Part shown: one piece after another, positions 1 to 53,849 of the stretch
How positions within the stretch are numbered: the stretch's first letter is position 1
Layout: the number at the start of each line of letters is the position of its first letter
Source of the DNA: Diprion similis
Taxonomy: Eukaryota > Arthropoda > Insecta > Hymenoptera > Diprionidae
Direction of reading: 5' to 3'
Length of the DNA stretch: 64,000 nt
Assembly: GCF_021155765.1 (NCBI RefSeq)
Contig: NC_060106.1
Coordinates: 9,307,501 to 9,371,500 of the forward strand
Position numbers and translations under genes: made by a program
The notes under the pieces: generated by a model
Database searches by the model: none
Told to the model about the DNA's origin: nothing
The model's input: only the letters and a program-made list of their open reading frames with translations

Positions 1-842
1 TGAGTGAGCTATACGCGTGTATACCTAGTAGTCGAGTTGTTCAAACCAACAGCAGATATCGTTCACACATTGGAACACACGCGGCCGCGGCCGCGACGAG
101 CTCTCATCTCGCGTCTCCGTCAGCAGCACCGGGTCCGAAGGGTAATTGGTGAGAGACAGAGCTAGGCGACTTGTTGCGCCCGTCCGTCCTCCATCCTCCG
201 ACACAGTCGGCTAAATGGGCTTGATTGTGGTCGTGAGTAACCAACCATCCACCACAAGAGAGGCCGTGTATAACCGAGTCCATGACTGAGTTGAGCGGGA
301 AGAACGTCAGTGCCCAGTGGGGCAGTTCAGCGTGAGCAGTCGTCGAAAGAACTCGAGAGGACAGAACGGCTTCTATCCGCTCCGATCGCGGTAGCAGCTA
401 GAATAATACAGCTGGCAGACATCAGATGTCGGAGAGACTGTCAAGTTCATCCGCATCACGTGCGTACGCCGGTGGCGTAAATTGGCCAGTGAAATAATTA
501 TAAGCGAGGAGCAGCTGATCGGCTCTTTGTTGCCATTTAAGACTGTGAGTGTCTGCGTAGAAGTGGGACTCGAGAACTTTCATGGCAGCGGTGATTCGCG
601 TCCTCATATTCGCGCACTCGACACTGTACCATGTAGTGGTCTAGAACCGTAGAGAGTGCGTCGACGTCCCGACGACGAGGAGGCGGTTGCGAAACTTTCC
701 AGTTTCGCAGAGCGAACGATACGATATAATATAATATATGTACGTGTAAACCGAGGCTGGGAACTGGCACATTTTTACGGCGAATGTACCGCGCGAAGTG
801 AAACCTTGATGAGTATAATCGAGTGACGGATAAGCGGTCATT
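1..842 (+). other. Upstream region and probable 5' UTR of the ABCD gene
   Basis: No coding region is supported here. The first 200 bases are GC-rich and hold a doubled GCGGCCGC-type stretch near 80-95, which fits a promoter or first non-coding exon of the ABCD gene starting at 843. Open frames on the minus strand have no splice context or recognisable protein and look like shadows. Confidence 0.5.
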
Positions 843-3800
843 ATGTCGTCCGTATTTTCTAAATTGATCGACAAGACTTCGGAACGATATGGAATACGGC
901 AGGAGAAGCTTACCAAAGGGGTCGTGGGCCTCGTGACAACCCTTTATCTCCTGAAACTCGGATACCCTTACCTGAATCAGGTGGCAGCAGAGGCGAAAAA
1001 GAAGGCGACCAGCCTCTGTAGGGATATTTCGGACCAGCGACACACCGCCAGTAATAATAACAATAACAACGTAAAGGATGACGGTAAGGCGAAGAATAAT
1101 GGTGCAACATCGCCCGGTGACGAGGCGAGCTCGTCACCACCTGCGGGGAACAAAGGCATTGGAGCTGGCTTGGACCGTGAATTTTTGGCGCGGTTAATGA
1201 CACTGCTAAAAATTATGATACCGGGCTGGCGAACCAAGGAGGCAGCATTGCTGACGAGCGTTACGCTGGCTCTTTTGGCGAGGACGTTTCTTTCGGTTTA
1301 CGTTGCGACCCTGGAAGGAAGCATAGTAAAACGAATCGTACTCCGGGACGGTTGGGGTTTCTTTTCGATGCTGATACGTTGGTTCGGCATTGCTCTGCCT
1401 GCGACTTTCGTCAACTCGGCCATCCGCTACTTCGAGGGGCGTCTGGCCCTGAGTTTCAGGTAAACAGCTTGAAAGGAGATTTCTTTTCTAACGATAAAAA
1501 GTGGTCGGACAACGATAACATCGAACCGATCTTTGAACTTTGAAACTTGGTCGCGGACGCGAGGATAATGCGATCATTTTCGCAGTCGCTTATGATAAAT
1601 CGAACACAAAGCGGCCAGTTATCATTCCATCTCCGTAAATATGACAGCTCATCGGTTATCGTACCAGCTAATATCGAACGCCGTTTATCAACCGTACTGC
1701 GAACGCTTAAAATCTCTGAGAGGATAGCGTGGGCGGTTGTTCGTGCGCAATCGACACTCGCGCCTCTCCGATCTCTGACTAAACCTACTTATTGTTGTTC
1801 ACACGTTGCTTCTTTCACAGGGGACGGCTAGTCAAACATGCGTACAATATGTACCTCAGTCAGCAGACCTACTACAGAGTCTCGGCCCTGGACTCGCGGC
1901 TTGGCGGAGCCGAGCAACGGCTCACCGACGACTTGTCCGAGTTGGCCAGCTCCGTAGCTCACCTCTATACTAGTCTTACGAAACCTTTGCTGGACTGTGC
2001 ACTTGTGGGCATCGCTTTGGCCTCCTTCTCGGCTCGTATGGGTTCCAGAGCAGTTCCAGGTACCCGGTTTTTTTCCTGTGCCCTTTCCTTTTCCGCTTCC
2101 GGCGAATTCGTTTCAGTTATACTGAGACGGAAATTTCTTAACCACAGGTCCGCTACTGGCAACGGCGGTGATAGGCCTGACTGGTCAGGTTCTGCGGCTG
2201 GCGTCACCAAAGTTTGGTCAACTGGTCGCCGAGGAGGCGTCGCGACGCGGGCGTCTGCGACAGGCACATGCCAGAGTCAGCGCTCATGCCGAAGAAATCG
2301 CTTTCTACGGTGGCCAGGATGCTGAACTTCGGCATCTCAACTCCGCCTACGACTCTCTGGTCGTTCATGTTAAACGAGTTCTCAGGTTGAAACTCTGGTA
2401 CGTTATGCTGGAGCAGTTCCTCATGAAGTACGTCTGGTCCGGAACGGGGCTCTTCGTCATCGCTCTGCCAGTCTTATTCCCCGTGATATCTGCTTCACGT
2501 GCATCCAATGACGACAGTGAGTTACATAATTTTTATTTTTAATCACTTGAGGTTTTCTTTATTAATAGATTTTCCTTGTTACGACAAGTTGCTTAGTTCC
2601 GGCTCCATGCGTACGTTTTACGTTCAAAAAAACCATACGAGCTACAAGTCGTTTGACGCACAGAGGTCACAAGGCGGCTTATTCGCCTCCGCCTCTTTCT
2701 CTTCACGCGCGGATTGCAAAAAAAAACAACAAAAAACACCGTTTTATTAGCCGTCTTGCGTCAAGACGTTAATCGACATCTTTGTTAGCTCTCGACGTGG
2801 CGATGTAGCGTACCGATATACAAGCGGTATCAAAAATTAATTAAACGCAGTTACACACACGTGTATACGGAAACCGGAGCAGCAATTAAAATGAAACCGT
2901 GAGCGAGCAAGTCGAAATGTAATCTAGCGAAGCAGGCAACACCAAGGACCGTATGTGCAATTTATTCTGTCGTTGAAAGCGAAAAACCTTCCAACTGACA
3001 TTTCACTGATTTAGAGATAACTGCGCGTCCCGATCTTGTCCATTCTCCGACCACCATTGCAAGGGAGTAGAATGGCAAATGTAAACCACGAGTCACCTAT
3101 GACGCAAATTAAGAATAAAAACTGCTCTTGACTTATTCCGAGTTAAATTTTTCTATATCGCTGGTAGCGAATGCATTTCACAATTAACCGTAGAAAGGCA
3201 CTAGTAACAGTTAAGAAATACTTCGCAGCTGGCGTGAGTGAGAGGACGCAGTACCTGACCACCTCAAAGTATCTTCTAAGCTCCGGTGCCGATGCTGTAG
3301 AGAGGCTCATGTCGTCTTATAAGGTTGTATTGCACACCTCGATCCACTCTGAAATTCCCACGATTAAACACGGTCGGTCGATTATAGCAAGAGATTAAAT
3401 TTCAGGAAGCCGTGGCCCTGGCTGGTTACACGGCTCGAGTTGGCGAGATGTTGGACGTCTTCAAGGACACGGCACTTTGTAAGTATCAAAAGGGAATAGT
3501 CGTCGGACAACACAGACCGATCACAGGAAACGACGGTATAGAAGTAACGCGACCAACCGAAAACATCCTGCACTTTGAGGACGGAGTACCGCAAATAAGA
3601 GGTGAGTCTGGCAAACGACAACTGGAAGCGTGATTGACGGTTGCGTCATTGGCAACACAATCGTCTCATCCTTTCGTAGTCGTAATTGTAGTACAATCAG
3701 ATAATTAACGCAGCGAACAACGCCACGATGTTTTCTTATAACCATGACGCTCATTGCTGTACACCTGATGCTAAATAACAACGTTCTCGACTTTGTTCAC

Positions 3801-5975
3801 AGGTATTGTTCGCGAAAGCACAGACGGAAGTATCGGACTGACGAATGTCCCCATCGTCACGCCCAACTGCGAAGTCATCGTGCCAAGTCTGACATTGCGG
3901 GTGAGTTCCACGTGACGTGAAACGTACATACAACCCGTATGTCAACCTACAATTTCTATCCCTAATTATAGAACCACAGTATCTTCGAGTCAGCCTGGCA
4001 TTGGCCGCCGAGGAACTCGTCGATCCTTAGATTAGCCTAGCAGTTGACTCGAGACTGACAATTATTCCAATATAAAAGACAAGATCAGACGCAATAAATC
4101 TGCACGTGTTAGCCTTGTCCATGTTCTATTTGTTTAATTTTTTTCTTGATTTCTATTTTACGTATTTTTTATTTACGCAGATTCAGCCAGGCGATCATCT
4201 ACTGATCACTGGACCAAACGGATGCGGCAAGAGTTCGCTGTTCAGGATTGTTTCCGGTCTCTGGCCCGTTTACGGTGGGGAATTGACCCGCCCTAAGGAG
4301 ACCGGAGAGTTCACTTATGCCGGGGTGAGACCGACGCTTTTCTACATCCCTCAGCGGCCCTACATGACCGTCGGGACCTTGAGGGACCAAATAATATACC
4401 CGTCCGATTCAACGAAGGGCAAATACACCGACGAAGAGCTTCTCCACCTCCTGGATCTCGTCGATCTGCGAAGTCTCGCCGATCGAGAGGCCGACGGGCT
4501 CAGTTCCAGGAACGACTGGGACTCGACGCTTTCTGGCGGAGAGAAACAGCGGCTTGCCATGGCCAGATTGTTCTTCCACGCACCGAGGTACGCCCTCCTG
4601 GACGAATGCACTAGCGCCGTTAGCCTAGAGGCTGAGGGCACCATCTACGAGGCCGCGAAACGCATGGGGATCACCCTGCTGACGGTCACCCACCGAGTCG
4701 CCTCTCTCTCCAAATTCCACAAGCTTATACTCCGCTTCGACGGCGAGGGTGGCTGGGATCTTGGTCCTTTGAACCAGAACGACGTTCAGGTCAAGGTAGC
4801 GAATCACGAGCAAGATAAGGACAAGGAAGAACCTCACCATCATCACAGACTGCAGGTTATTTACAAGAATTAACTTAATCGCGATTTTATTCGTCGTAAA
4901 ATAAAAGAGAGGATAGAAATCGATTTGTTGCTAATAGATGCTAATGGCAAGTTGAACTACAACTTGTTTACTTTCGTTGACACTTGTGAAACTGCTTTTA
5001 TTTTGTACTATTAATAGTGAAAATACTTGTCGGATTATGCCCCACCATTCGTTCTTGAAACAAGTATCATAGCTCGCGATGTTTATAATTATGACGATAA
5101 CAACATTCGATATTAGGCTCAAGTGGGGCGAGGAAGCGGTATTTTTATACGCAGTATTTTTTATGAACAAATAAGTAGGACACTACCATTATCAATGGTT
5201 TATAACACAGCAAAAGTTGAATATGATATAGTAAGGGGCCATTTTTATTTTTTGTTATCAAACTGAACGATGAATAAGTCTATTTTTTTTTAAAACAAGT
5301 TAAAATGAACAGAATGTAAAATGCGAATTAGCATGAATTAGTACATTTTACTAACATACTTATAGATCACTTGCAACATTGCTATGACTACACATAAATT
5401 TTATTCTAATCTATATTATATTCTGTTATTATTTCGTGGAATCAGGATACTCAATTAGACAAAATTACCATTTGCAGACGTATTGAGCACCGCTTTTTGT
5501 TGATGCTGTGACATTCGGGAGATAAATTCCATATTCAACTTTCGTCGATGTTTTATTTATAATTATGCAGGCAAACAGTTTTTTCTCTCTTTGCATATGC
5601 GGAGCTAGCGGGAGTTTAAACTTTTTTCGGTGTGCTAGATGTTTAGAGGCAGTTGCACGTACTTATTATGCGCACACTAGTCCTCATTTTTTCACAGCCA
5701 TATATCGGCGTGACCCCTTGGCCGAAATTATACAACAAATTAGATTCAAAACGTAGAAAAAATAGCAGTTCTGTTTTGAAATGCCTGTATAATTTTAGAG
5801 TATCTTTAAGTACTAATATTACCTTGTTGCCGTTTCGCGCAATAACGTATATATGGTAAAAATGCGTCTGCGAAAAATTGATCTCGCGTCATGTCTATAA
5901 CCAAATTATAGCCAATTGTTTATTTTTTAGGAACTACATGACATGCTTGCCAAGGACCCAGTGGGCATCAGCTAG
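843..5975 (+). CDS. Abcd1: Peroxisomal ABC half-transporter, ABCD1/2 (ALDP) type
   Basis: This gene encodes a half-size ABC transporter that dimerises in the peroxisome membrane and imports very-long-chain fatty acyl-CoA. I place eight exons at 843-1459, 1821-2059, 2148-2516, 3229-3323, 3406-3601, 3803-3900, 4181-4855 and 5931-5975, all in phase, giving about 777 residues. The membrane part holds family signatures such as [21 protein letters not shown] and the EEIAFYGG loop. The nucleotide-binding domain shows Walker [10 protein letters not shown] (about 549-557), signature LSGGEKQR (about 656-663), Walker B YALLDE and the following THR. The DGEGGW block after it points to ABCD1/2 rather than ABCD3. 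The short last exon is supported because RLQ joined to ELHDML matches the helix at the end of human ABCD1. If the last intron is kept, the frame stops at 4873 instead. An asparagine-rich insert lies near residue 75. A poly(A) signal AATAAA is near 6012. Confidence 0.95.
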
Positions 5976-18446: not shown

Positions 18447-21400
18447 ATGCAGATACCACGTAAATTGTTCTCGCCAAATTTGGCAGTACTGGTGCTCATG
18501 TTGAGCGGTGGAATCGTTGCACTTCCGACCGAAGCAGGTAAGGTTTGAACCTCGCACGAAAACTCTTTACACATATCGATATCGTAGGTACTAATCCAAC
18601 AGTGCCGGTCTTTCATGGAATAATACGAAAAGTTTGACAGCTTTTTTTCAAACAAAAGGGATCGGTTAATGAAACCGTCAAGATTACCGCAGATACGATT
18701 GTAGTTGAGATAATTGCGTAGGGTTCCGTAACTTTGTAATGCAATCGTGTGGCGAACTCGCAGCAGAAGTTTTCCCAAAGTTTTTCAGAAAAGAATAGTA
18801 ATTTTTTCAACGAACATTCGATTCCGATCTGCTTAACGAATTCATTCTTTTGTACAAATATTTTTTAAAAGAAAAAAATAACACTTAATACCTTTTATAA
18901 TTGTAATTTGACAACTAAATCGGATTTCAAAATACTTTCAACGGTTAATTTCACACCGTGCAGTTGCTGATACTTAAAAATTTGATATCTGTAATTTGAC
19001 GTGGTATACGGAGAGAAGAGAAGGAACAGATTTTATCGAAAACTGCAGCAAAAGAGGGACAAATAAAAGTTTTTGGTAAAAAAAAAAAAAATTGTTATAA
19101 AAGTTGATTATATTTTTACTATAAATGTAGCACAGACTTTACTCTGCACACAACAGTCTTCACTGTTTCTAAAGTATAAAATCCTGCATTTTACGAAGTA
19201 TATTTTATCAAAAAACTTGGTGTGTACCATTTTTATGCAGTTTTGAGTAAACTCTGCTCTTTTATTCTCTCTGTGTAGTCTATATCATGTGGCATGCTAA
19301 ATAGTAGGATGCATGCCAATTTTTTCACGAAATTTTTTGATATTATCAATTTCACTGGCAACTGGCCTGCATCCTGGTAGAAATGGAAGATGTATAAACT
19401 ATTTTTACAGTAAAAAATAGCCATACGTTCCTGATCGCACCAGGCAATGAATATGTTAAGAAGTTAATCACTGGTGTGAAGAATAACTTAATATGAAACC
19501 GATACGAGCACAACTGTATGACTCATGTATTATGCATTATATCCGAGATTATATCACGGCCACAAGAATCGAGTGAGAAAGATTGCGCAGCGTATGTCGC
19601 GAAAAGAAGCAAACACGCAGAAACGTTGATTGAAATCCGCAGGCGACCCGCATTAGGACAGCGTCAATCAGCTTTCTCGGTTTTACCTGCACACCGACAA
19701 CGATCACGCTAACAATGTCAATGACAACTGCTCTTACGCCACGATTCATAATCCGCAAAAATTAGCATTTTAGAGTTCGTTTGAGGTGCTTCGCGCGGTC
19801 TCCTCAACCTCGGATTATCATAACTGTTTGTCTAACCGAAGAAAAGTATAAAATTGCAAAAGATTTCTTCGTACGCAAACAAGCGTTTGTATTTATATAT
19901 TTACTCATCTTTCTGGTTGAAGGCGATAACGAAACAATTTCTGTAAACGCGACTTCGATGGAAGCTCCTTGTCCCGGAATACCGAGGAGCTATTACGATC
20001 AACTGGGCTGCACACCAGTGTTCAAAAAACCCGAGGACAGATGCCCCGTTCGTTATACATGCGGTAAGCGTCCCAGGATCAGTTCATTGTTTTGTTTATT
20101 TTTATTTTTTTCAAATTTCGAGGTTATTCATTCATTGACTTTTCGCGTTCCATAGATGATTTCGAGCAAAGCGATGTGGAGAAGTGCTTCTTCCGCGGGA
20201 AATCCGTGGCACCTGGTACCAGCATCGATACCGGAAACCCCTGCGACATTGCCTGCTCTTGTCACCTGCAGGAACTTGCTCCTGAATACAATCTCACAAA
20301 GTTGGTAACACTTGTTGAACGACAGATTCTTTTCATAAGTCAGCTTGACTTGGTGAGGATTGATTCGCTAATCAAGGATCCTTCGATTTCAGAATGGCCG
20401 TCGTTAATTGCGCAATTGTCGATTGTCCGCTAGAGATGATGTCCAATTACGACGAAGACGGAAATCTAAGGCCATGCGTGCCGAAAAAAAGTCACGACGA
20501 ATGCTGCGCCAGCGAAACTGTCTGCTGTTGGTAACATTTTGTATTAGCGTAGTCATTTTTCTGTGATTTTTAATCTAATTGCAAGATCTATGATCATGAT
20601 TTTGATTAAAAAGTGGCAATGAATGGTGAAGTTTTTCACTCAGATCAAACGTAATTACTTGAAATCGGAGTGAAAAGTGCTCTACTTGCATGTATCATTT
20701 GATCACAGTAATTGGCATTAACGTTTCATTTTGAGCAACGAAAAAGTCAATGATTAGTCGTCGATATATATTGGAATTTAGGTATTTCATTCAAACACAA
20801 ATCGAAAATCTCAAATTCTGTAAATTAACTGTATTCAGTCGCTGACGCCGAAGACGAGGTTGATGACAATACAGCAAAAGAATCCGTGGCAGAAGGGAAA
20901 GAGATTAATGTAGTAAATACGACGGCGAAAGTGCCGACGAAGTTGGCAAAATGCGTAACTGCCGACAACAGAACTTACGTGGAAGGCCAAGAATTTTATT
21001 TAGATGACCTGCCGTGTAAAGTCTGCATCTGTCAGCCCGGGTACACAGGTTCGTTCAACCGTTTATAAATCGCTTGCAAATTTTTTCGCAACTACTTTAC
21101 AATTCGAACGCGATGACACTTTTTCGCAAGAATAATTGTCGACTATCCACTTGACTTTTTCGTTATCAGCCGGAGAGTCTGGAGAACCATGGTGCCAGGA
21201 TGTTCGTTGCAGAACCGTCTTAGAACATACGAGGGATATTCGACAAGGATGTGTTCCTCTCTACTACGGCAACACAGGCTGCTGCCCCTTCGGTTTCCAC
21301 TGCCGTAAGATTATATTCACTTTTTCATAGACATTGTGTGAACGACATTGATTATCAGTGTACTAACGATTTTTTAATCATCACCCATCCAGCGAATGAA

Positions 21401-21678
21401 AACGACACGGTGACATCGGATGTACTCGTGAAAATCGCGCTGAATCCAGGTATATTATTTTTTACACCTAAACACACGATTTAGAAATTGAATCAACAAT
21501 CAGCTTGATAATCTGGATTTTTTTTCTCCTTACAGACGAGACTTGTAAATTTGGAGAGTTGAACCTGAGGGTTGGTGACCGAGTCACGCCCAGGGAATCG
21601 GAAAAATGTATAGAATGCAAGTGCCAGGTTCCGCCCTACGTGACATGCCTTCGGAAAACGTACGAAGAGTGCAGCTAG
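18447..21678 (+). CDS. Secreted cysteine-rich protein with VWC-like repeats (351 aa)
   Basis: Eight exons join in phase: 18447-18537, 19923-20063, 20156-20300, 20393-20526, 20839-21048, 21170-21304, 21393-21449 and 21536-21678. The N-terminus is a signal peptide (hydrophobic LAVLVLMLSGGIVA). The rest holds three cysteine-rich blocks with von Willebrand C-like patterns: CxxxCxC near the ends of exons 3, 5 and 8 (CDIACSC, CKVCIC, CIECKC), WCQDVRC and paired CC in exons 4 and 6 (DECC, GCCPFGFHC). An acidic linker (about residues 175-200) separates blocks one and two. Such proteins act outside the cell, often binding growth factors or microbial surfaces; no function is assigned. Two consecutive donors (20301 and 20527) are the unusual GTTGGTAACA, where only the first GT keeps the frame. 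Neighbouring oskar is tail-to-tail with it. Confidence 0.85.
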
Positions 21679-23341: not shown

Positions 23342-26300
23342 TCACTGCTTCTCAAGCATTGAGATCGCCAGGCGGCGTCCTTTTGTATTCCATAAAACAT
23401 GAGGATACCGACATCCGGATACCATTCTCGCGTCTCTGTGTTAGAGGAAAAAGCAGAAGAAAATGAAAATAAAAACTGAAATATTAGTTACAGAAAAAAA
23501 AAATCAAACTATAATCCATAAACGCAGCTTGCAGAAAGTATATAAAAAGTATAAAAAGCATGAAAATAGAAAAAGACAATACTGCCGACACTAACATTTG
23601 AAAGTAGTCGTAAAGGGTGCGGTAATTTCCGTCGGTAAATTTGGAGAAGACATCGATCACGTTATAATGACGAATGTACGAGTCATCGGGACTGTAATGG
23701 CTGTGCAATTTGATCCAGTTGTTGAATGAGTAGAGCACGGATAACTTGCTCAGGTTACATCTTACGGAATAATTGGCCAATGGTGGAATAGTGCAGAGCG
23801 TAACCTCAGTCAAATTAAACCTGTCCCTGCACAGATCTAATAGTCTCTTCATATTCAGAACCATTATTTCTAGGCTGTGGCCCTGCGTAATTTTTCGATA
23901 ATTCAGTCATGTATGTATGATATAATTCTGAAAAATGTCTTTTTTTAGGTCACGATAATAATAATGTCACAGATTTTAACAAAAAAAAGTCTGTCAGAGA
24001 TTCGAATCTACGAGTCGTGCATTCAACAACATATTTAAAGAAAAAGGGAAAAGAACGGGGACGTGTTCAACGCTTCGGAGATTTTACTATACGATATAAC
24101 GACCCTATTGCCCACGTAATTTCTACCCCGTAATAAAACCTAATAAACATTAGCAGAAAGAATTACTACGAATTACGACCCAGCCTACCGGTAGTCGACG
24201 CCCCATTGTACAGATATATATTCAATATAATAATCTTTTCTGTAAGATATTTGTGTGGGCCATCCTCTCTGGAAAAAATCCATTGTTTTTTATCTAACAC
24301 AATAAAAGGGGGAGAAGATTTCTCGCGTTTAATTTATGAACGGTCTCTGCGATGAACAGAAGAAGGTACAAACTGCACGTGTGTTACTGCGAAAAATAAA
24401 TAAATAGAAAATGGCATACTCGGAATACGTCCACAGCACCGAGCATAATCGTAATCTTGCTGGATAAGAACTGCGTTTTCTCGAGTCTCCGACGACAGTC
24501 GTTGATGGTTTGACCGGAAATACATAATCCGCACTCAATCCCGCCTCCGACTGTTAACAGATCGATGCCAAATACAATTGCAATTCTAAACGGTACAATT
24601 TTCATTGTTATATCATTTCATTATCGGTCTCGAATGGCGATTACCTTCTGGCTTCCATGGTGGTGCTCCGAAATTTTTTATTGCCAGTTGTAGAAAAAAA
24701 TCGTCACCAATCAATTGTTGACCATGAATAAGCGGTTCTAATAGAATTTCCTATGAAAATATCGGAGACACAACGTTAAAGGATATATGGTGAAAAAAAA
24801 AAACGTTTCATTACGTAACAAAAAAAATTAAACGATCCCTGAGTACAATCAGGCGACCGATGTGATCGGATTAATATTTATTCGCAAGAGCTCCGATAAG
24901 CGTCAAGTTTTTCAGGCAACTGAAATATAAGCAATGGTAATAACCATATCAAAAACTGTAGAATTTGAAAAGTAATGCAATATTTTAGAAACTCACCTTT
25001 GTCCAAAGTAACGGACCTCAATCCAAAGAGAATAGCAATTGAAAATTAGGCACGCTATTCAACCGGAAGATCAATTCAATCACAAAACCCATTGACAAGT
25101 CACGATTCTTACTTATTGTTATTTATTGTTAATCACCGGTACACCAACAATCAATAACATCTCTATTACATGATGTACTGACGCGTGGTTTATATATGGA
25201 AAATAAAGTACGTAGTATTATATAAAACATTGTAAACAGAATGATATACATAAAATCTCTATTTGTAGATTTTACAAAAGAATAGAAATCCCTTAAGATA
25301 CCAGTTTCTGGGATAACACGAGCTTTCCACAAATAAGCATATGATTGAAATCGACTACACCTGCAAATATTCTTAGTAATACAGATATAGAAGTGAACTG
25401 ATCTGCTCCAGTGCAGACAGATAACGATGCTTAGAAATTCAAAAACTAAAAGTAAAAACGTTCCGTGTTTCATCATGACCACGGCCATCGCGTATGATTG
25501 TTGTTCATCGTTTCTGATTCATGACTATCCTGTATATTCTTTACACTAATTCAAATTAGTTTGATATGAGCTGTCGAACATTTGACGATGCTAGACGCTC
25601 TGTGATGTGATGTGATGTTACAGTGTTTTTCAAATTTCAAAATTTACAATTTGCATTTTGTTTTACGCAGCACTGCATAATTGACCATGGAAACTTCATA
25701 TTTGCGGAACATATTAAAAGTAGTGTTACGAAGAGTAACGCAACTAATAGTTCAACAACCATAGTATGGAAATTGTTATTATAAATTGGAAGAAATCAAT
25801 TAACACCAGACAAGGCATAATTCATTAATATTCGCTGTGTTATTTTACTGTAACGAAGCACTTGCAACGATTTCCCGAGATGCTATCAACTCTTTGATTT
25901 ACGAGAAAGCTTACAAATTCAAAGTTACGATTTTTCAAAGACTGTGTGATTTGCCACTGAAGTGTGCCCAGCATCGTAACAGCTCGTTAAACTAACTTGA
26001 ATTAAAAAATTGATAAAAATTTGCATACTACATTTCTGATCAAAGCTTTCGAATTTCTAAGAATCACTTTTCCAAGATTTTTACCCAAATTTACTTATTT
26101 CACCGGCATATAGTGCATCAAGCGTTGTACGTCAAATTAATGCTTCTTGCATAGCATCGTCCGAATATTGAATTATCAAAAACAAATAAAAATACACAAT
26201 ATAACAAAATCAGTCATATCACCGAATATTCCTATGACACTTAAAATAATTAAAGATTATCAACCAAATTTCTATAAAAAATATGTAACTTAGTGATATA

Positions 26301-29300
26301 ACTATTTGCAAGGAATAGAAGAACCGTTAAAAAGGTAGGAAAGAAATTCTATTCTAGTACATGAAGGAATTCTGAGGATACGTATCTCTCCACCAAGGAT
26401 ACGCGGGATAATTATACCACGGATTGAAGCACGACCCTGGGACATTGGTGGACCCGAATTGCGGTCCCGCCGACCACCAGTACCCACTCTGATTATCTAG
26501 CAGGAACGACGACTGATACTGACACGAATCCCAGCCCCACCACCCATTGTTAGCATTGTTAATAGATCCAGCCATACCTGAACAAACAACAAGGTGTTTC
26601 GAAATTAAGCGCGACTTCACGTCTGTTCGAATAATCCCGTGTTCAAAATAAAAAACGCCGAAAGATATTTCCTCTATTCCCTTTTCTCCTATACGAAAAA
26701 CAAATTTCACGGTGAAAATGTGCTAAATAAACAATTTGCATTGTCAATTCAAATTCCGAGTTTCAGGGACGAGAGAAATTTATCGGTCGACTTTTTTTTT
26801 GCTCGTTACCGTACTTACCGCCGCGTTGATTAGCATAAGGCGTGTTACACGGTTGAAACTCCGATTGACTCGGTCGATTCTGGATTTCCCTGACAGGATG
26901 TTTACCCACCTCTGGTTCTTTCTTGTCGGCGACGCGAATGTTGAACTGCCAGTTTCGGTAGCCCTCTGCGTATCTTTTTTCATCTTCCGAGTTGAAGTTA
27001 TACATGTTTCCATCCGTGCTACTTAATGACGCCGGGGTTTTTGTGCTCCAAGAATAATCTAACCGTAAGTATTTATTATTTGTGGTATATTTAAATACTG
27101 ATAAAAATTGTCTGGCAGAAATTGGCTCGTTTACATGCGCGGAAGGATCCTTCAATAATACACGACAAAATAGCTCACAATCAACTGGTTTGATAGTCAC
27201 CCGACGGACTAGCAGAAGTACAGAAACGGCATGGATTCTGCGAAGTTGCAATAGTAAAATCGTACAATTTATGCCATTCCTTTATTTCTGCGTCAAATGA
27301 AAATGTTTTCAAGTGTTTTTGTCCAGAATTGCGTAAGGAATGGGGCTGTTAGGCCCGTTTTCGCGGTCAAGATACGCTGATTTTGATATTCGACCATGTT
27401 GACGTTAGTAACGTTATCGTAACGATTCATGCTGGGGAAAATTGTTAATTCGTGATTTTGGAATTCTTCGAAATTCGTTAAACCGTAGTAGAATAAAACA
27501 CTCGTATTTTGAAATCTTAGTTTTTTCATCGTCATTGTAAAAATAAAGAAATAGTGATTTTTACGATAACGTTACTAACTTCAATCTCATGATTTTTTGA
27601 AGATAAATACGTCAACGTCGAAGTCGACCAGGACACCCCCTCAAGCCGATTGTAAATTCTCCAATGTTTATTCATGCAAAAGGTACAGAATCGGCGATCG
27701 CAGTATCGCTGCCATGTATTCAGAATTAACCAATATTCATGTACCTATACGCGTATAATGAAGGAATAACGTAATAACACGAAAACATATACATGTTTGA
27801 TTGTATAGAGCATACCGTTGAAGGTGTGGTACTTTGGGCTAGTGCTACAATTTTGGATTCCTGGACGTCCTGCGTTATATTTATTAAATCGATCCATGTC
27901 TCTACGTTCGTTATTTTTTTGTGCCCAGTTGTTTTTTTTTGATTGAGTGGAGGAAGTGTACCATTTTGACTTAGTATACGCCATCTTTGTATTTCTGGTA
28001 AACCTTTCCGCCCGGGGAGTAGTTGGTACAGCTTTTTTCGATCTTCGATATCTCTAAAATACAACGGAGGAGAATTTGTCAACCTTATAAAATGAACGGA
28101 CACCGAGTCACAGGGTAACCGTCAGTAGAAGAAAATATCATAACTACCTTTCTTTGGTGAGATGGATTTTTCTGCTTTCTCACAAGACTGTCGATATGGG
28201 CAACTTTTGGATCAGACACGAAAAGCACCGAGTCACCGAAATGATTAGTTCTTACGTCAACGAATTGGATGCTTCTAACAAAACTGTGAAGGCTTGTGTA
28301 CCCCAGTTGGGCATAGGGTATACTTTCGCCTACTAAGTCTCTGTAATCACCTACAAATCAACGCGTCGTGAGGTTTTCGGGTGTAAACACAAACACAAAG
28401 ACGTAGAAAGTTTTTCTTCCACTAAATCGCTAACTCGGAACGTATGTCTAGATCACAATCGAACGTAAACATAAATGGCAGCAAAAACTTAGCGTATTAA
28501 CACCATCCTCACCACTTTTATTAATATTAATTGTACAATAATAATTGACGCGAGTATCAGATTTTCCTTGAAGAAACTATAAATATGATTGTTTTTGCAG
28601 AGTGATAAGAGTAATTCTCGGACACTTTTATAACCTAGCTCATGATAAATCAGCAGTTGCAGTAATGAACATAAATAATTTAGTAGTTATGCTTTTTATT
28701 TATTTGAGAAATTTTCCGCTCACAATCACTTACCGACTAAAGATTTCGTCATATATACATGAGTAAAGAGCAACATGCAATACCAATCAAAACTATCCGA
28801 AAACTTCTTGAATTAATGCGAAAATAAGTTCAAAAAATGTATTCCTACAATAAGTGGTAATTCAATAATAGAAATACATTTCTTGATCTTATTGTGATAC
28901 GAAACAAAACATTGTTTCAGATATTTGTAGTCGACAATGTATGCAGAATTTTATTTACTGCAGTATTTTCATATCAGTACTGCGTAGGCCTTGATAAAAA
29001 TCATTCAAAATCGATTACATTCAACGCGGTCAGTCGAGATTGTAAGTATAAAACACGAAATTGTACCCCTTATATTGCTAGACTCGTAAACAAGTTTGTA
29101 TTATTACAAGTTGGTAGACAACCGTGGTTGTGGGGATAAAATTTCTGAGAATAGTAGTATTGGGATCTGATCACTTTGGTCATAATATCTGATCTATTTT
29201 AGTATGCGACTCAATAAATTATTAAAGCGGGATATTCGTTCAAATAAAATAAAAAGGTAAATAATTTTTTTTGAAAGTACTATTGAAGTTAAACAAATGA

Positions 29301-29784
29301 GCACTGATTGGTAATAAACTGAGGAACTTTTCGTTGCCCACAATAGTTAGCCATGTTCTCTTAACCCCTCTTAGCCCCTCCATATCAGCTTCCAATGCAT
29401 ATGAAGCAAATTAATATAACCAACCCAAACAAAAGAAAATTGCGTATCCCGAAAGACGAGCTAAATTTGGTTTAGCGAAAAAATGTCTAAATCGACCGGA
29501 TGGTCCAGTTGATAAACAATCGTACGATCTCAGTGCATTCGAATAGTAACCTAACTGCAAAACAAAGACACATAAAGGACACGTCTTTCTGTGACTCGAG
29601 TACAACGCAGTCGGTGTATATCGCCTTCCGGATGAAACTTGACAGGGAAAAGCCACAAAATGCGAAGCTTAATATGCGTGAATTAAAAATGAAACTTACC
29701 CTCGATTTCACGAAAAGGTACGCCGCCCTTGCGTGAGACAATACAAGATTTGATCATTTTTTCTACCGCCTCCTGCGACGTCAT
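23342..29784 (-). CDS. osk: Oskar: germ-plasm organiser with LOTUS and OSK domains
   Basis: Oskar nucleates germ plasm at the oocyte posterior; LOTUS binds Vasa and OSK binds RNA. Exons 29784-29700 and 28350-28148 encode the LOTUS domain (SRKGGVPFREIEGDYRDLVG, then IPYAQLGYTSL). Exons 28053-27816, 27058-26819 and from 26577 encode a basic, Asn/Trp/Tyr-rich linker. Exons 24750-24645, 24550-24420, 23882-23596 and 23435-23342 encode an SGNH-hydrolase-like OSK domain of 205 residues: LIGDDFF at the first block, ISGQTIND, IMLGAVDVFRGHSL, TIPPLANY, and MVSGCRYPHVLWNTKGR at the end. GDD replaces the catalytic GDS and the Asp expected before the final His is absent, as in known non-enzymatic OSK domains. 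All these exons agree in phase. Only the join from linker to OSK is unresolved: the linker frame stays open to a stop at 26354, and a spliced product needs a phase-1 donor inside it (26488 or 26524) plus one short exon (25360-25302 or 25982-25915 are candidates). The family call does not depend on that join. Confidence 0.93.
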
Positions 29785-30333
29785 GACGTTAGCGTTGCGA
29801 GTGCTCACACGTGTTGCTGGGAACTCTTCTTTCCTCGCTGCCTCCACTTTGAACGAACGTTTATCACTCAAACACGAGAAAAAAAAGATTCTCAGCCGAC
29901 TCACTTATTGTCTGTTTGCCGAACCGCACGGACGTGAATCTGTTTAGAAATTTATTATCTTTGCCGGAACAGCTTCTTGTCGGCAGAACAGTCGAACGCC
30001 GATCTTCACGTGTCTACCAACTGCGAAGACGCGAAACTGAAGGGAAAGAGGGGCGATTGGTCGCGTGGTTCGCCCAGGAGTAAATGGACGCATTTCATTG
30101 GCCGATTCAGTGGCGCGAAGGTAGTCAATCATTGTGCCAATTTCGTTCGAATCTGGAACGCACTTGACGGAATATCTGTAATATCGAGGTTTCGATGGCA
30201 TATATTTGCTTTGTTTTAGTCGGTTTTACGCGTTAATCGTAAGCAGGTTCAGGTTATTTATTCAAACGTCAGACCTGTCACCTGCGATGAAAAGTTAATA
30301 GTAACCCCGGCGTTGAATAGAATTAAGATAGAC
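29785..30333. promoter_or_regulatory. Head-to-head promoter region of oskar and the GAPDH paralogue
   Basis: The start codons of oskar (29784, minus) and the GAPDH-like gene (30334, plus) face apart across 549 bases. The interval is less AT-rich than its surroundings and must contain both promoters and both 5' UTRs. I cannot name a TATA box. Short open frames on both strands here have no supporting features. Confidence 0.5.
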
Positions 30334-36088
<5,755 letters not shown>

Positions 36089-38011: not shown

Positions 38012-41000
38012 TCAGGTCTGTAGCAGCTTTGCACGTAAATTAATTTTCTCTTGAAGAACAGCAGCTAATTCAACTGTCAACTCTTCGCAAACAAGTTTCA
38101 ATTCTGCATTCTTTTCCCGTAGCTCTTGAAGTGTTAACCTTGTTTCTTCGCTCCCATCTTCCCTTGTTCCATCTGCTTCAACACCTTCTCGCTCTACGAC
38201 AATCGACGCATTGCTAACGGACTGAATATTATGTACAGATCTCAAAAATAGAATAAATCATGCCACAAGTGACCATTTTATCACTGCAGACTCAACCAAG
38301 GAGTGAGAATCGATACTGGAAATTATTTGATTTATTAAAAATAAATATGCTCACGTCACCAAGTCAATTTAGATCTGTGTATTGACTTCATTTGTATATT
38401 TGTTCTCAACAAATGTTTCTACAAATATGGCGTAATACTGTTAAAATATTGAATAAAAAGTTCTTACTTGGACTTGGCTTTCGATAGATTTGAAATGCTC
38501 CACAGATTCCAGTAAATTTTTGTGCCTGACACTTGTCCTTGTTGTGATTACTATCACTCCTTGATGAAAAATGGGAGAAGTCAGCAACAAAGCCTTTTTT
38601 GTGATTGTCAGTTTTCTGGTTCTCAACCTCGCTTTTTTGTCCCACAAGTTTTTTTGGTGAAGTCTATTTTCAATAATTTGGATTAGAATTCAATAACGTT
38701 GTCAAATTCAAGTAAATATGCAGAAAATATTAAGTCTAAAAACTTACAATTCCAGGTGATACTCTCGGCGGTACAAGCGGTGGTGCTCCCAAAAAATTCT
38801 GTCCGTTTTTTCCTGAAACAATTTTAAATCACAAGGTGAGTCAATTTAAAGGGTTTATTCATCAAATAGTATTATCTATTTATAGTAATATGGTACTTTC
38901 AAGTGATAAACGCATATGTAAATAGAACAAGAATACTCCCAAAATTGTGACACATTTTGAAATCGTGTATGCATGTTATTATTAGACTACCACATATTTT
39001 ATGCACTCAATATCAGCTTCATGACTGTAGAGATATCAGCAAACAATACGCTGTGGCCTCATTATATCATATGAACGAAGTGATAATCATAATTAGCTCA
39101 TCTTACAACGGCTATTTCTGTCTGTCCATACTTGCGTATCCACTTGATCTCGAAAAATTTCGTATAAAATATTTGTAGTAACGTAGGTTTGAAAATTAGT
39201 TTGATGATTCTTTCATGAATTTATATAGGAATTCAGATATTCTCCAACTGTAGGTACGTATACCACAAATAGTAAGGCTATATAGGCAAATGCCCTCTCT
39301 TTCTAGTGCAGAAAAAAGTCATGACAAAGAATTTTCCACTCAAGTTGTGTAACAAAGCCATTCCCTTATCTTGGTTCGAAGTAGCTGCACTTATTTTAAA
39401 CCTAATAATGTTGTTAATTAGCTTCACCTCAGGGAAAAATAGTTATAAAACTCTGGATCGGAATTGAAACAATTTACATACCTAATTTGTTGAGATCCAG
39501 ACTAGAACTTCTAGCGTGTGTTCTATACGGTCTTGGTGGAGGTGGAGGAGGTGGTTCTTTTTTAGGAGTGCTTATGATGGTTTCTTCAGGAGCTGAAATA
39601 GGTTTTTTAGCTTGAGGCCTTTGGACAAGCGTAATGGATGAAGCTTGGTTTTCGTCATCACCTAGCGTGCTTCCATTACTATTGCTGCTCCCTCCACCGG
39701 ATGCGAGAATAGAAGCTTCGGGTGTAAGTCGCAAAGGAACAGGATGTAAAATTTGAGGATCTCTTTCAACTGCAATCTTTTGAAAATCAAAATTAACTAA
39801 CTTTGGATCTGGACTAGCAAGAGAACCACTGGTCCCAGTGGGAGAGTCGACAAATTTCGTCCATGCCTTGCTTATTTCTTTTGTATTATTTGGTGGACTG
39901 GGCTGGGGTGGTTTTGGAACAGCTGGTACTGGAGCTGGAGCTACAACTTGAACTGGGAGTGGAAGCGGAGCAGGAACTGGAGCTGGAACTGGGGCTGAGG
40001 CTGGCATGGGAGGTGCGAGAGAAGGAGGTAACACATCTGGTAAAGGAACATGATGTCTTCGTAACACAACCAGATGCATAGCTGCATAAAATTCTTGAAG
40101 ACTCAAAGCTCCATCTCTAGTGACGTCAGCTAGTTGCCAAATGCGTCTCAACTCAGCTACTGGCAATTTCGATTTCTCGAAAAAAGTACGAGCTACAGAT
40201 CCGGCTACTAAGCCCTCAGGGTCTGGCTGCAGTTGGGCAAATTGCGCACTATAGTATTCTCGCTGCTCCTTATTGATGATCCAAACTCTTTTAGGGGGAA
40301 AACTCGATCCATCGCCATCGCCATCTCCATCGTCGCTACTGTGTCGTTCGGAACTTTCTTCTTCAGTTCCGAGTAGCTGTCTTTGTTCTTCTGAAACAAG
40401 GAGGCCTTGCCATCCGCTTCCAGAAGAATCAAGTATAGTTTCACCTCCCATAGCTAATTCACCACGCTCTTGGATCACGCTATTCGTTGGGGTAGGTGAA
40501 TCTGTACTGCACCCTTGTTCCCTCGGAGACTCAGCCTCGCTCTCACTCTCACTAGTACTAGAAAGTACGTCTTCATTTTTACCGGCAGCTAAGACTGCTC
40601 CGTAGGGCCAATAGAATGAAGGTAGGTCTAATTTTAAAGAATTTGATAGCAAGTCAGGTGTGATTTCCAGTCCGTGTTGATAAGCTGCTATCAGTTTCAG
40701 AATCGAATAGAATTGCTTTCTATTTACATGATTGGTACCTCGTGTTGCTCCACATATTTCCATGACCTATCATCAATGGAATTAATTTTATAAGTAAGAA
40801 TCTTATCAGGGTACTAATATCGGTAGTTACACATACAATGTTTGGGTCAAACATCAACCCTATTTCAAAAATATTTATTATTAGAGGCTAAAAAAACTTT
40901 GCAGTTGAAAATTACATATCGTATACTTTAAAAATCAATTCCGGGAACAGTATTTGGTAATTCCAAACATTCTAGCACAGTTTCACAATTCCTAGTAGAG

Positions 41001-43074: not shown

Positions 43075-46000
43075 ATGAAGTCTGGACGCTTGAACGAGCA
43101 CAGAGGGTCCATCCTTCTGTCGAAGGAAGAAAACCAGGAAGTCTTCAAGCTCATTGGAAACCGATGTCAGGTGTGAACTTGTCAAATTTGTCATCACTAC
43201 CTTTGTCAATGTCCTTTCATTGCAACCTGATACTGACCTATATTTAAAGCTACAGGCAATCGTTGTCTACCTACGTGTTTAGAGGCAAAGATTGCCTAAT
43301 TTAGAAGCTGCTGTGGAATACGTGAAAATTTTTTTAAATACTTTATTACTTATTGAATACACTATATTCTCAGATCTCTAACATTTTGTATTCTAAGATT
43401 ATTAACAGACTCCACCTTCCTGACGATACAAATTTATTATTTTTCAAGCAGTAAATAGTGCATATAGAATTTAGATGTAAACTAACATCTGTTACTTAAA
43501 CTTTCGATTTTATGTTTTAGTTATTCTTAACTCTAGTTGCCATTCATTGGATTGTCGTTATAACTGGCGTGCATGTTGGGTATATTTTAAATGGTTGAAG
43601 TCATATATAATCAATGGATGATCATTATTCTACACATAATCTTTGATTTTGCAAGATCTGTCTGCTTATCACAATCTTCCAAACATATACTGCTATGACA
43701 GGCATGTTATCAATTTCTGGCTTAAGATTATAAAGCATTATCATATTTCATTTGATAACAGAATATTTTATAACAATTTTCATGTAACTCACTCATTAGA
43801 ACATTTAGGCAATACGAAACCTTCATAAGTTTTTTTTATATTTAAGCGATATACTATGCAATTAGATCATAATTATAATATAAATGTACATCCCTATTCT
43901 CACATTTCAATTCGGCAGGCAAGAATTGCGTCTAATTTTAGTTGGAACGAGACAAGCACGCTATCAATTGTTTGAAAGAAATGGTTATTATTTGTATTCA
44001 GACTAATATTTAGTCATGTTGTTTTGCTTATGACTCATTCGTCGCATTTTTGTCACAACATGTGAGGCAATTGTATAGCTAACATTATGTTTTACTATTT
44101 CAGTGCCTTGCAGCTGGTGTAATACAACTATATGTAACTGAGCCTCCATCGCATAGGGATTGGATAAAAAGAGATACTGGTGTAATAACGCTTATTAAAG
44201 ATAATCCAAGACGCAGTTACTTTTTTAGACTGTATTGTCTGCGAAGAAATGCAATGCTGTGGGAACATGAAGTTTATAATTCAATGGATTACAAAGCTCC
44301 CATGTCCCATTTTCACACATTTGAGGGCGAAGATTCTATGACTGCTTTTAACTTTGCCAGTGAAACAGATGCAATCATATTGAGGTATTAATCGCTTTTT
44401 TCTCCAGAGCTGCAATAAGAAGTTGTAAAGATTATGGCACAACATGTTTTGCTGTGAAATAACGTACCCTCTAATTTTATACATGTTACAATCGCTCATT
44501 ATTTTGAAACAATAGTTGATGGTTTAATAATGATTTTCTTCCCCCAAATCAAAGGTCGATAATTCTTGAAAAGCTTAATGCTAAGAGGCAAAGGAGACAA
44601 GAAAGAAAGTCACGAATTAGTGCCGACTCTCATCATTCGCTAACTTTGCCAAAAAAGAGCCACAGCAATACCTCAGCAGTAGGTTTCAGCACTGGAAGTT
44701 CGACAGACATATCAAATGGATCTTCATCATCCGCTACTGTTAATAGAAGCGTGTCTAGCAGTTCGATGTACAAAGCTAAAAATCATAAACAGGACAAGGA
44801 TCCAAAGAGGAGATTGACAAAGGCGGACATAGGTTCCCCCTCAAACTTTAGGTAAGATCATAATTTATTGAAAGTATCGTGCACTAAACATTGACAGTAC
44901 AAAGAAATTTGAGCAGCACAATTTTTTCCTCGAGAAATATATTAATTCATAATATTATCTGTTACAGACATGTGGCGCACATGGGTTGGAATGTAAACAG
45001 TAAAGGTTTAGAATTGGAATCCGTTGACCCGCAATTAAAGCAGTTTTTCGATACAGCAGGTGTTTCGGATGATCAGTTGAGAGATCGAAAGACGCGAGAG
45101 TTCATCTATGACTTCATCGAATGCCATGGGGGTATAAATGCAGTTAAAGCAGCTATAGTACCATCTTCGGGTATACAAGGCAATCAACCACCACCGCTGC
45201 CAGCACCAACAGGACTAGGACCTCCACCTCCAGTTCCAGCTCGTACTGTTCCAGTTAGTCCTGGACTTCCAATAAGTAGTGTGCGTTGCCATAATGTTTG
45301 GAAAGACTGTACTTATATCTGAGTTATCTTATAAGTTCGTCATGTTCTAATTTATTATGATGATTTCAGAATCAACCACGAAACGCTCCACCTTTACCAC
45401 CTTCAAGAACTCCTGCACCACCTCCACCACCTAATGCCCCTCCTGCTCATCGGCCTTTGCCGGCTCGTCCTGTTGCATCCTCTGTGACATCACCACCATG
45501 TCCTCCACCACCACCTCCACCTCCAATGTCCACAAATATACCTCCTCCTCCTGCACCTCCGGTGCCGCAATTAACGGAGATGGATAATGAGACAATAAAC
45601 AGTAATGCCACTAATAATAATGGTGGATTACCTGATACCAGGAATGCTTTGCTCGATGCAATCAGAAGTGGTACAACGCTCAAGGTACGTTAACTGTTTC
45701 AAATTTGTATTTTAAGTCTACTGATATATGTTATTTGAGTGATATTTCTTTCGTAAATCTGAAATAGCGTAATGCACATAAATTTTATGTGGCCAAATTC
45801 TTTATTTCTTTGTAATCTCCATGAATCTTCAGCGTAACTGCGATTTCGGGATAATCCGTGTTTAGATGAATTCTGTTTTTGGATTTCAATTAAAACGTTC
45901 TCATTCATATATTTTTGTAACTCAGATTTACTTTTATATTGTAGAAGGTGGACAAAGTTGAACCCAAGCCAAATTTGGCTGACGATACTAGAGGTAATCT

Positions 46001-51040: not shown

Positions 51041-52205
51041 ATGTCCGGGTATCGGAGAGTGAATTATTACGAGTTATGCAGGCTTTGCACAAGTAGCGAG
51101 GGAAATAAAATGAACATTTTTCGTGACGAAGGACGGAGGAGACAGTTGCAGAATAAAATTCAGATATGTCTGCCTGTACAGGTAAGTTAATTTTCTTCAT
51201 TCTCTTTTGCTTCACCCTTATCAAACGTCTTCCTTATACATACGTTGTTACTTGCTTAATCAATTAGCTACTATAGGCACATGTTTCTCATTCATAAACT
51301 ACGCCAGTATATATTACTTTATAAACAACATTGATTTCAACGCTATCAAGTTGGCCCAAATCGTTTCCCAGCTTAAGAACTAAAAGTTTTTTTTAAGAAA
51401 ACTAAAACTCATAATATCAATCTAGTTTGAAGCAAGCTTTGGAAGATTTGTCAAAATCCATGCTAATTAACGGTTGAGTATTTAATACTTATTTAATTTT
51501 GTAAATATAAATTTGGGCTACTTTTTTTCTGTGGTAATGAATATTATTTGCTTGAAAATTTTAAGGTACTGGAGGAAGATTCTCTGCCCAAAATAGTTTG
51601 TCACGAATGCGTGAAAAAGCTGGAGAATTTCTTTGAATTCCGAGAAACTGTGGTCAGTGCGGAAGGAATGTTAGAATCTTACTTTACATCTCTACGATTT
51701 TCCGAGGACTTTATGAAGGAAGGAAAAGTTTATGTGAAAACTGAAGAAAAGAAACAATCATCTCCAGCTCCAGACAACGAACAGATAAAACCTGAAAAAA
51801 CTGCGTCTCCACTCAACGCCCAGATTGCAGTAACGGAACAGCAGGTCCAACATCAGCAGCCTGTCGTTGTTAGCAACGTCAATGCATCTAACATCCACAT
51901 AATCAGTGGAGTACAAGCCCGTGTTCAACAATATAAATGTGCCATGCAGGTTTGTGGTACTAAAAGTTAAATGAATTTATGAATCACTTAGTACAAGTCT
52001 TCGATCAATTGAATGACCATCTTTATAAAACCATCGTAGATGGAGCATCTTTATTTCATTTCTGTGTTTATCACAGATGCAACCTGGTGGTGTCGCAGCT
52101 GCGGTAGTCGAAGCAACGGCTGAGACCCACTATAGTTATCAACAACAAACTTCTCAGCAAGTGTCTCAACAGCAGCAACAGCAACAACAACAGCAACAGC
52201 AACAA

Positions 52206-52237
<32 letters not shown>

Positions 52238-53849
52238 ACAGCAGCAACAGCAGCAGCAGCAACAACAACAACAGCAACAGCAACAACAACAACAATCAAA
52301 CCAAGCCAATCAAGGACAGCAGATAAGTCAGCAATCAAATCAAGTCCATCAATCGCAGAATCAGATTCAACAGGCGCAAAATCAAATGCAAAATCAAAAT
52401 GAAATAAATCACCAGTCACAGGCTCAAATAAATCAGCAAACTCAGAGACAGATATGTCAGCAAAATCAAGCTCAAATAGCACAACCAAATCAGACCCAAA
52501 TTTTTCAGCAACAAAAACAAACTCAGATTGCACAGCAGTCACAGTTAACTCAGCAGATACAACAGCTCCAGAGACAGCAAAGGGAATTTGAAAAGCTGCA
52601 GCAAAGAAATTTACAACAAATTGAAAAGCAGCAAGTTCAGATTGTTCAGCAACAAGAACAGCAACAGCAGACACAAATTGTACAAACTCAGCATCAAAAT
52701 AATAATATTATTTTAAAAAGTGAGCCATCCACTGAGCAAAATCAACAAGTTATTCAGAAGGTACAACCCGAATCACAGGATAACGATACTCCAAATCAAA
52801 ATGTTCAAACCTATGCTACTGTAGCTGCAACTCCGGAAATTTTATTAAGTTTAGGATTCAAGGAAGCGAGTATGGGCACGCAAGCCGCACGTGACGATCC
52901 GAAAGACTTTAAAGACTTTATCAAGGTAACACCAGATGACGCGATATCCAGAAATTCCATTGGTCAAATATCGGAGTTCCTGAGAATACGAACAGTTCCG
53001 GAACCCACGTCACTGATAGCTGTGAATCCTCAGTCTGTATCGCAGGCTTCGCGAATACCGAGCTGTCGAGATTGTGGTAAAACATTTACTACTTTAAACC
53101 AATTAAACAACCACAATTGTAGTAGTCCGAATTTGTTGAACGACGTTGCGGACTTGAAAGAAGAAAATACCCCGGCGAATGGTAGCCCTTTCAGTTGTGA
53201 CGTTTGTGCAAAACCGTTCAAACGGAAAGAACATTTGTTCCAGCACAGAAAACTACATACCGGTGAACGGCCGTTCGCCTGTACAGCGTGTGGAAAAGCT
53301 TTTAGTCGTAAAGAACATTTGGTTAGGCATTCCGTCTCCCACACCGGCCAAAAAATGCACGAATGTGAAATGTGCGGTAAGAGCTTCTCGCGTAAAGATA
53401 ATTTGCACAAGCATAGAAAAACTCACGGTGTTTCTGGACCATATATTTGTGACGCATGTGGGAAGTCTTTTGTCGTTAAACATTATTACCTACTCCACTT
53501 GTCAAATCACGCACCTACAATTGATGGAATAGGCTGCCAAGATCCATTGCCTTATAAGTGTGATCAGTGCCATAAAGCGTTTTCAGTTAAGCAGTATTTA
53601 ACCACCCACAAACTGAGACATAGATCTAAAAATAATGTTGACGCAAATAATTCATCAAACACTAGCGTTCAACAGCAGCAGTCTAGCGCAACGACAAACA
53701 ATGTCTCTAGCTCGCCAAGTCTCAGTAATGCAAATGGTCAGACTGCAAATGCGTCGGTTGTGGAAATACAAAGTGTCATAGAGGGAAATGAACAAAATGG
53801 TCCATTTAATGGAAATCAGTATCATGGAAACTTGCAGCACTTCCAATGA
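51041..53849 (+). CDS. ZAD and C2H2 zinc-finger protein with long glutamine tract (765 aa)
   Basis: Three exons, 51041-51181, 51566-51949 and 52077-53849, all at phase 0. The N-terminus is a ZAD domain, the insect zinc-finger-associated dimerisation module, with its four zinc ligands visible as C13xxC16 (ELCRLC) and C59xxC62 (VCHEC). A Gln-rich region follows, with an unbroken run of 43 Gln at 52167-52295 and a further Gln/Asn-rich segment of about 170 residues. From about residue 504 there is one atypical C2HC finger (CRDCGKTF) and then five C2H2 fingers, several joined by HTGERPF- or HTGQK-type linkers, the last ending near residue 695. This is a DNA-binding transcription factor of the nucleus. 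The ZAD class is large and fast-evolving, so I cannot name an orthologue or target. Confidence 0.93.
52167..52295 (+). repeat. CAG/CAA repeat encoding 43 glutamines
   Basis: The run is a mixed CAG/CAA tract inside exon three of the zinc-finger gene. Because the codons are interrupted, it is less prone to slippage than pure CAG, yet length variation between individuals is likely. The same bases give long Leu or Val/Ala frames on the minus strand, which are artefacts. Confidence 0.95.

Follow-up and report, generated by a model that had tools for sequence, protein, structure and literature searches.

In Oskar an animal LOTUS domain is fused to a domain that probably came from bacteria. The protein nucleates the germ plasm of flies and wasps and has been lost repeatedly. 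The published definition of an oskar gene is a LOTUS domain, an interdomain region and an OSK domain, and 379 oskar sequences from 350 species had been catalogued by 2021, with Cephus cinctus named as a loss (PMC8662646). A cluster of oskar in 181 insects was reported in 2026 (PMC13389597). LOTUS domains are divided into an extended, Vasa-binding class found in Oskar, TDRD5 and TDRD7, and a minimal class (PMC5458760). In flies, deletion of either LOTUS or OSK weakens pole-cell induction (PMC12247748), and the wasp oosome requires oskar (PMC13120685). According to work on crickets cited in PMC13389597, oskar can have other roles outside flies and wasps, so that a role in germ plasm depends on the species.

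Identification of an oskar gene

The sequence analysed is a stretch of 64 kb, referred to here as the window. Positions 23342-29784 on the minus strand are an oskar gene. Its predicted product has a LOTUS domain and, after a linker of low complexity, an OSK domain that is almost complete, and the name is given because these three parts stand in the published order. An intact single insect oskar gene with a short-form product (about 548 residues in the preferred model) is very probably the correct reading. The bounds in a preliminary description of this DNA mark where the stop codon finishes (23342) and where the ATG begins (29784), and the distance of 3.4 kb that it gave between LOTUS and OSK on the same strand agrees with the coding exons (28148 to 24737). 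The motifs that it quoted are present on the minus strand, but GGVPFREIEGDYRDLVG and GAVDVFRGHSL exist solely across a splice junction. Their positions, with that of the former nucleophile site, are as follows.

29698-29727, minus strand: GGVPFREIEG
28289-28345, minus strand: YRDLVGESIPYAQLGYTSL
24691-24711, minus strand: IGDDFFL
24498-24521, minus strand: ISGQTIND
24420-24440, minus strand: GAVDVFR
23871-23882, minus strand: GHSL
23769-23792, minus strand: TIPPLANY
23375-23404, minus strand: PHVLWNTKGR

Both domains that had been proposed are borne out by the spliced protein, which matches Pfam OST-HTH (LOTUS, exons 1 and 2) at 2e-10, above the family cut-off, and Pfam OSK at 1.8e-55 (187.8 bits, profile positions 13-198 of 202, without the short exon X described below). 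The LOTUS criterion of the published Oskar pipeline is an E value below 0.05, and Pfam OST-HTH was used here instead of the published HMMs. When 8 exon-sized frames were compared singly with Pfam, OSK was found in three (1.1e-12, 6.3e-07 and 1.8e-16), OST-HTH in one (5.7e-06) and no match in three. An R3H-assoc match in one frame (0.0085, under the cut-off) was judged to be due to chance, and its frame is not the coding one. The domain matches at 23342-29784 are beyond chance. Among PDB chains, two from fly Oskar are the best matches to the OSK part (3.9e-17 and 4.5e-17), and the non-Oskar chains are a GDSL esterase (0.29), Plexin-C1 (0.51) and a GDSL-like lipase (0.71).

No second copy of LOTUS or OSK was detected in the 64-kb window, and Rfam and tRNA searches of the window gave no matches. 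CpG observed/expected is 1.22 across the window, and high values of this ratio are typical of Hymenoptera. Together with the Tdrd7-like LOTUS domain and the lack of a long-Oskar start in exon 1, this tends towards an insect outside the Diptera, perhaps a hymenopteran. In searches for relatives of OSK, none is encoded by the 7 pattern-matching stretches in viral contigs or the 32 in genome contigs, plasmids gave 1 record only, at E 2, and NCBIfam gave no families.

Genes flanking oskar

Further genes or parts of genes were recognised elsewhere in the window.

834-4873, plus strand: ABC transporter pieces of the ABC_membrane_2 type (probably peroxisomal ABCD)
19766-21678, plus strand: cysteine-rich exons, by eye resembling a von Willebrand C-type secreted protein; the one frame tested has no Pfam match
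30334-32509 and 34698-36085, plus strand: two tandem GAPDH-like genes
39474-40766, minus strand: reading frame with an EH domain
44083-45322, plus strand: reading frame with WH1 and PBD domains (WASp-like)
52029-53849, plus strand: C2H2 zinc fingers downstream of a long polyglutamine stretch
57051-62993, minus strand: at least two adjoining ion-channel genes, with Ion_trans in two tested frames, cyclic-nucleotide-channel-like by eye

The GAPDH-like gene adjacent to oskar is arranged head to head with it, with about 550 bases between its start and the oskar ATG. This copy has diverged, sharing 63.5% identity with the other copy over an 85-residue stretch in the middle.

Exon structure

Splicing from the ATG at 29784 to the stop codon ending at 23342 can give an open frame of 548 codons with no internal stop. 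Splice sites were scored with matrices set from general knowledge.

29700-29784, minus strand: exon 1, ATG followed by the beginning of LOTUS, in frame to the donor G/GTAAGT
28148-28350, minus strand: exon 2, remainder of LOTUS with the C-terminal extension (helix alpha5 region, VAHIDSLVRKQK); Pfam OST-HTH 5.7e-06 alone and 2e-10 when spliced
27816-28053, minus strand: exon 3, Lys/Asn-rich linker; open frame, phases consistent
26819-27097, minus strand: exon 4, linker; donor GTAAGT, weak acceptor (-0.4)
26361-26577, minus strand: exon 5, linker with many Trp, Tyr, Asn and Pro residues; 3' end uncertain
24997-25016, minus strand: exon X, putative, 20 bases (SVTLDK), bridging exons 5 and 6
24645-24737, minus strand: exon 6, start of OSK, LIGDDFFL; Pfam OSK 6.3e-07 alone
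24420-24550, minus strand: exon 7, OSK, GLCISGQTIND to LGAVDVFR; Pfam OSK 1.1e-12 alone, weak donor (-1.2)
23596-23882, minus strand: exon 8, OSK, GHSLEIMV through TIPPLANY to YDYFQ; Pfam OSK 1.8e-16 alone, weak acceptor (-3.0)
23342-23435, minus strand: exon 9, last part of OSK (VSGCRYPHVLWNTKGRRLAISMLEKQ), then the TGA stop codon

Phases are consistent within exons 1 to 5 and within exons 6 to 9. An alternative acceptor for exon 4 at 27058 keeps the frame and removes 13 residues, and exon 9 aligns with the fly Oskar C-terminus up to residue 203 of 208 (chain 5a4a). Upstream of 29784 the frame of exon 1 is closed by a stop at 29907, and the interval holds no in-frame ATG that could begin a long-Oskar N-terminal extension. 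The long-Oskar form, found in a subset of Diptera, was rejected for exon 1 on this basis, though an extension might be encoded by an exon further upstream. The two Bruno-type motifs after the stop codon are no signal, as this number was reached by 284 of 1000 shuffles. If exon 7 is started at 24585 (IAIVFGIDLL) the frame fails and the stretch is intron, and a start at 24550 restores the frame.

The LOTUS and OSK coding frames lie on the same strand with LOTUS first, and can be connected by in-frame models of 480, 510, 529 or 548 codons, of which the weak part is how exon 5 connects with exon 6. The acceptor of exon 5 is good (4.8), but the exon runs into an in-frame TAG at 26352-26354. Its best internal donor scores 0.6 and the donor in the model -2.3. 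For exon 6, the acceptor at 24737 scores -4.2 and that at 24750 scores 2.5, but the latter requires a different upstream frame. The sole donor scoring at least 8.1 among 3769 minus-strand GT dinucleotides is AAAG/GTGAGT at 24996, which was taken as the end of exon X. The acceptor of exon X (GAG) is poor and is outside the 15 best of the region, and the bridge from exon 5 through X to exon 6 depends on three weak sites.

Inclusion of exon X raises the OSK match from 186.8 to 192.9 bits and extends it to profile positions 3-198, and six shuffles of the six X residues gave 188.6-189.4 bits. The gain of 3.5 bits over the best shuffle lends moderate support to the exon. Three uses of X are phase-consistent, namely exon 4-X-6 (480 codons), a shortened exon 5-X-6 (510 codons) and exon 5-X-6 from 24737 (548 codons, or 529 if exon 5 ends at 26418), and of these the last alone gives a longer and higher-scoring match to OSK. 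Skipping exon 5 (model A) is in frame yet brings no gain for OSK (185.4 bits for the full-length protein versus 187.8 without X), and cutting exon 5 at 26488 (model B) is likewise in frame with no gain (187.7 bits for a 243-residue piece versus 187.8). On the strength of these matches and phases, exon 5 would be joined to exon 6 through X.

Other connections were rejected. Intermediate exons at 25307-25137 and 25445-25137 have strong sites but their phases are incompatible with exon 5 or 6, and with relaxed limits 5 phase-compatible candidates were obtained, none of them convincing (best score -1.3). If exons 5 and 6 are joined directly, the lone phase-compatible donor scores -7.3.

LOTUS domain

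The LOTUS domain is identical to that of fly Oskar at 17 of 89 aligned residues. Its best match among PDB chains is TDRD7 (9.8e-11), and none of the 7 matches at E up to 1 is an Oskar chain. The N-terminus of wasp Oskar has been described as strongly similar to Tdrd7 (PMC3084197), and the LOTUS domains of non-dipteran Oskars, for which a comparable closeness to TDRD7 has been described, group apart from those of flies (PMC7250577).

H227 and Q235 are the most conserved residues of the Vasa helix across 379 Oskars (PMC8662646). When the predicted protein is aligned with fly Oskar, H227, L228 and Q235 correspond to H80, I81 and Q88, and A162 corresponds to S13. Mutation of A162 or L228 in the fly abolishes Vasa binding, and position 162 is Ser in TDRD5 and position 228 is Ile in TDRD5 and TDRD7 (PMC5458760). 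The Vasa-contact positions are preserved in that, judged from the alignment, each is kept or conservatively replaced, and the S13 and I81 replacements are ones that occur in the Vasa-binding TDRD5 and TDRD7. The fly dimer contacts D197, L200 and R215 correspond to S51, R54 and S69 and are not kept, which suggests that this LOTUS domain would be a monomer. Measured LOTUS domains are monomers in an ant, a mosquito and a cricket, but not in a fly, a tephritid and a pteromalid (PMC8662646).

OSK domain

The OSK domain shares 63 of 187 aligned residues with fly Oskar, and this alignment shows none of the three catalytic residues of SGNH enzymes (Ser, Asn and Asp). The former nucleophile site is GDD both here and in the fly. 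The block that we take to be GxND reads GAVD here and GSVD in the fly, and what is presumably the last block reads CRYPH here and KEPY in the fly, the His being kept here where the fly has Tyr. The preliminary description had singled out the changed SGNH positions of this gene, and it was right that GDD is present and that there is no Asp before the last His. However, these changes are not special, as fly Oskar has them too (GDDF and KEPYLFWN), and they are therefore traits of the family.

Of the residues with known functions in the fly, S457 and R576 are kept (as S390 and R521) and S452 is replaced by Cys. S457 is conserved across insects and altered in osk[6B10], and several functional residues of the fly are reported to be unconserved across insects (PMC8662646). 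P425, from the same source, was left out of the comparison as it falls on Leu in the fly sequence used. R436 corresponds to I367 and R442 to Pro in a part of the alignment that is gapped and uncertain, and the basic fly stretch KCRFRRHER aligns with the non-basic NFGAPPWKPEVGGG. A change of R436 in the fly lowers RNA binding. Replacement of the basic stretch around R436 speaks against the same RNA surface as in the fly, and RNA binding, if any, may occur through another surface.

Proposed function

By analogy with work on flies and wasps, the extended N-terminal LOTUS domain would bind and stimulate the helicase Vasa via helices alpha2 and alpha5. The OSK domain at the C-terminus, a predicted dead SGNH hydrolase fold, would bind mRNAs such as nanos. 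Assuming that the low-complexity linker joins the two domains in one protein, Vasa and mRNA could be gathered into germ plasm, or into an oosome if the species is hymenopteran.

Alternative explanations

The arrangement could be taken for two adjoining genes, one for OSK and the other for a Tdrd5/Tdrd7-like LOTUS protein that finishes at the exon 5 stop. In favour of this, exon 5 has no good donor and terminates in TAG, TDRD7 is the closest solved chain to the LOTUS domain, and positions 162 and 228 carry the TDRD-type Ser and Ile. However, OSK exon 6 has no ATG of its own, and its acceptor is immediately preceded by an in-frame stop, so that the exon requires splicing from upstream, and three in-frame joins are available. 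No Tudor domain was detected in the 8 exon frames and spliced proteins searched, and a Tdrd7-like N-terminus is also found in wasp Oskar (PMC3084197), the non-dipteran Oskar LOTUS domains forming a group separate from the fly ones (PMC7250577). Two genes are highly improbable. That an ordinary SGNH/GDSL hydrolase gene lies beside a LOTUS gene is barely credible. The Lipase_GDSL_2 match that would point to it is weak (22.0 bits, E 2.5e-04) and below the cut-off of 32.9 bits, against 187.8 bits for the OSK model, and the catalytic residues, Ser included, are absent. With the PDB results (3.9e-17 for Oskar, 0.29 for the best other chain), this disposes of the concern raised with the preliminary description that SGNH lipases or esterases might match the OSK exons better.

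The remaining alternatives accept a single oskar gene. The frame of exon 5 is open over the entire exon up to the TAG, and in model A the exon is skipped in frame, so that it could be an alternative end and the gene could yield, besides full-length Oskar, a protein of ~342 residues with LOTUS only. This is unlikely, as no minus-strand AATAAA or ATTAAA occurs from exon 5 to 25127 (>1.2 kb downstream) and a literature search gave no paper describing such an isoform in Hymenoptera. A more elaborate version, in which the cryptic 20-base exon is combined with this alternative end to give full-length Oskar and a LOTUS-only Vasa regulator, is quite unlikely. As surveys rest on predicted gene models, an oskar of this kind may be missed and counted as a loss, possibly in a sawfly or other hymenopteran lineage, and if the species belongs to a lineage so scored, splicing rather than loss would explain the absence. 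Decay of oskar, with the absent exon 5 donor as a recent lesion, is very unlikely. Several sites are weak (the exon 5 donor, the exon 6 acceptor at 24737 and the exon 8 acceptor, -3.0), but a low score is not in itself the sign of a lesion, since accepted junctions such as the exon 7 donor and the exon 8 and exon 4 acceptors are also weak. Furthermore, the remaining exons are all open and agree in phase, and OSK is almost complete, with neither a stop nor a frameshift. The preferred reading is an intact single oskar gene.

Comparison with known Oskar and TDRD proteins

The gene is an ordinary member of the well-studied oskar family, and one more copy adds little alone. Given the number of sequences in print by 2021, the earlier statement that a well-preserved copy is informative was overstated. 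The predicted monomeric LOTUS and the non-basic OSK loop bear on how far the fly mechanism is shared.

TDRD7 and TDRD5 (PDB 2lh9, 3rco and 3s93) have the same LOTUS fold and Vasa-binding extension and are the best solved relatives of exons 1 and 2. They differ in that LOTUS is followed there by Tudor domains, whereas OSK follows here and no Tudor domain is present in the frames searched. Drosophila melanogaster Oskar (PDB 5a4a and 5cd9 for OSK, 5a48 and 5nt7 for LOTUS) has the same domain order, and shares GDDF at the former nucleophile site and the motifs GLC.SG.TIN, PL.NY and WN..GR. However, the long-Oskar N-terminal extension of the fly protein is absent from exon 1, and OSK has a loop here that is longer by about 9 residues (HSHYSPDDS). 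Among non-dipteran Oskars, Nasonia vitripennis Nv-Osk is described in PMC3084197 as likewise having no long-Oskar extension, a Tdrd7-like LOTUS domain and a hydrolase-like C-terminus.
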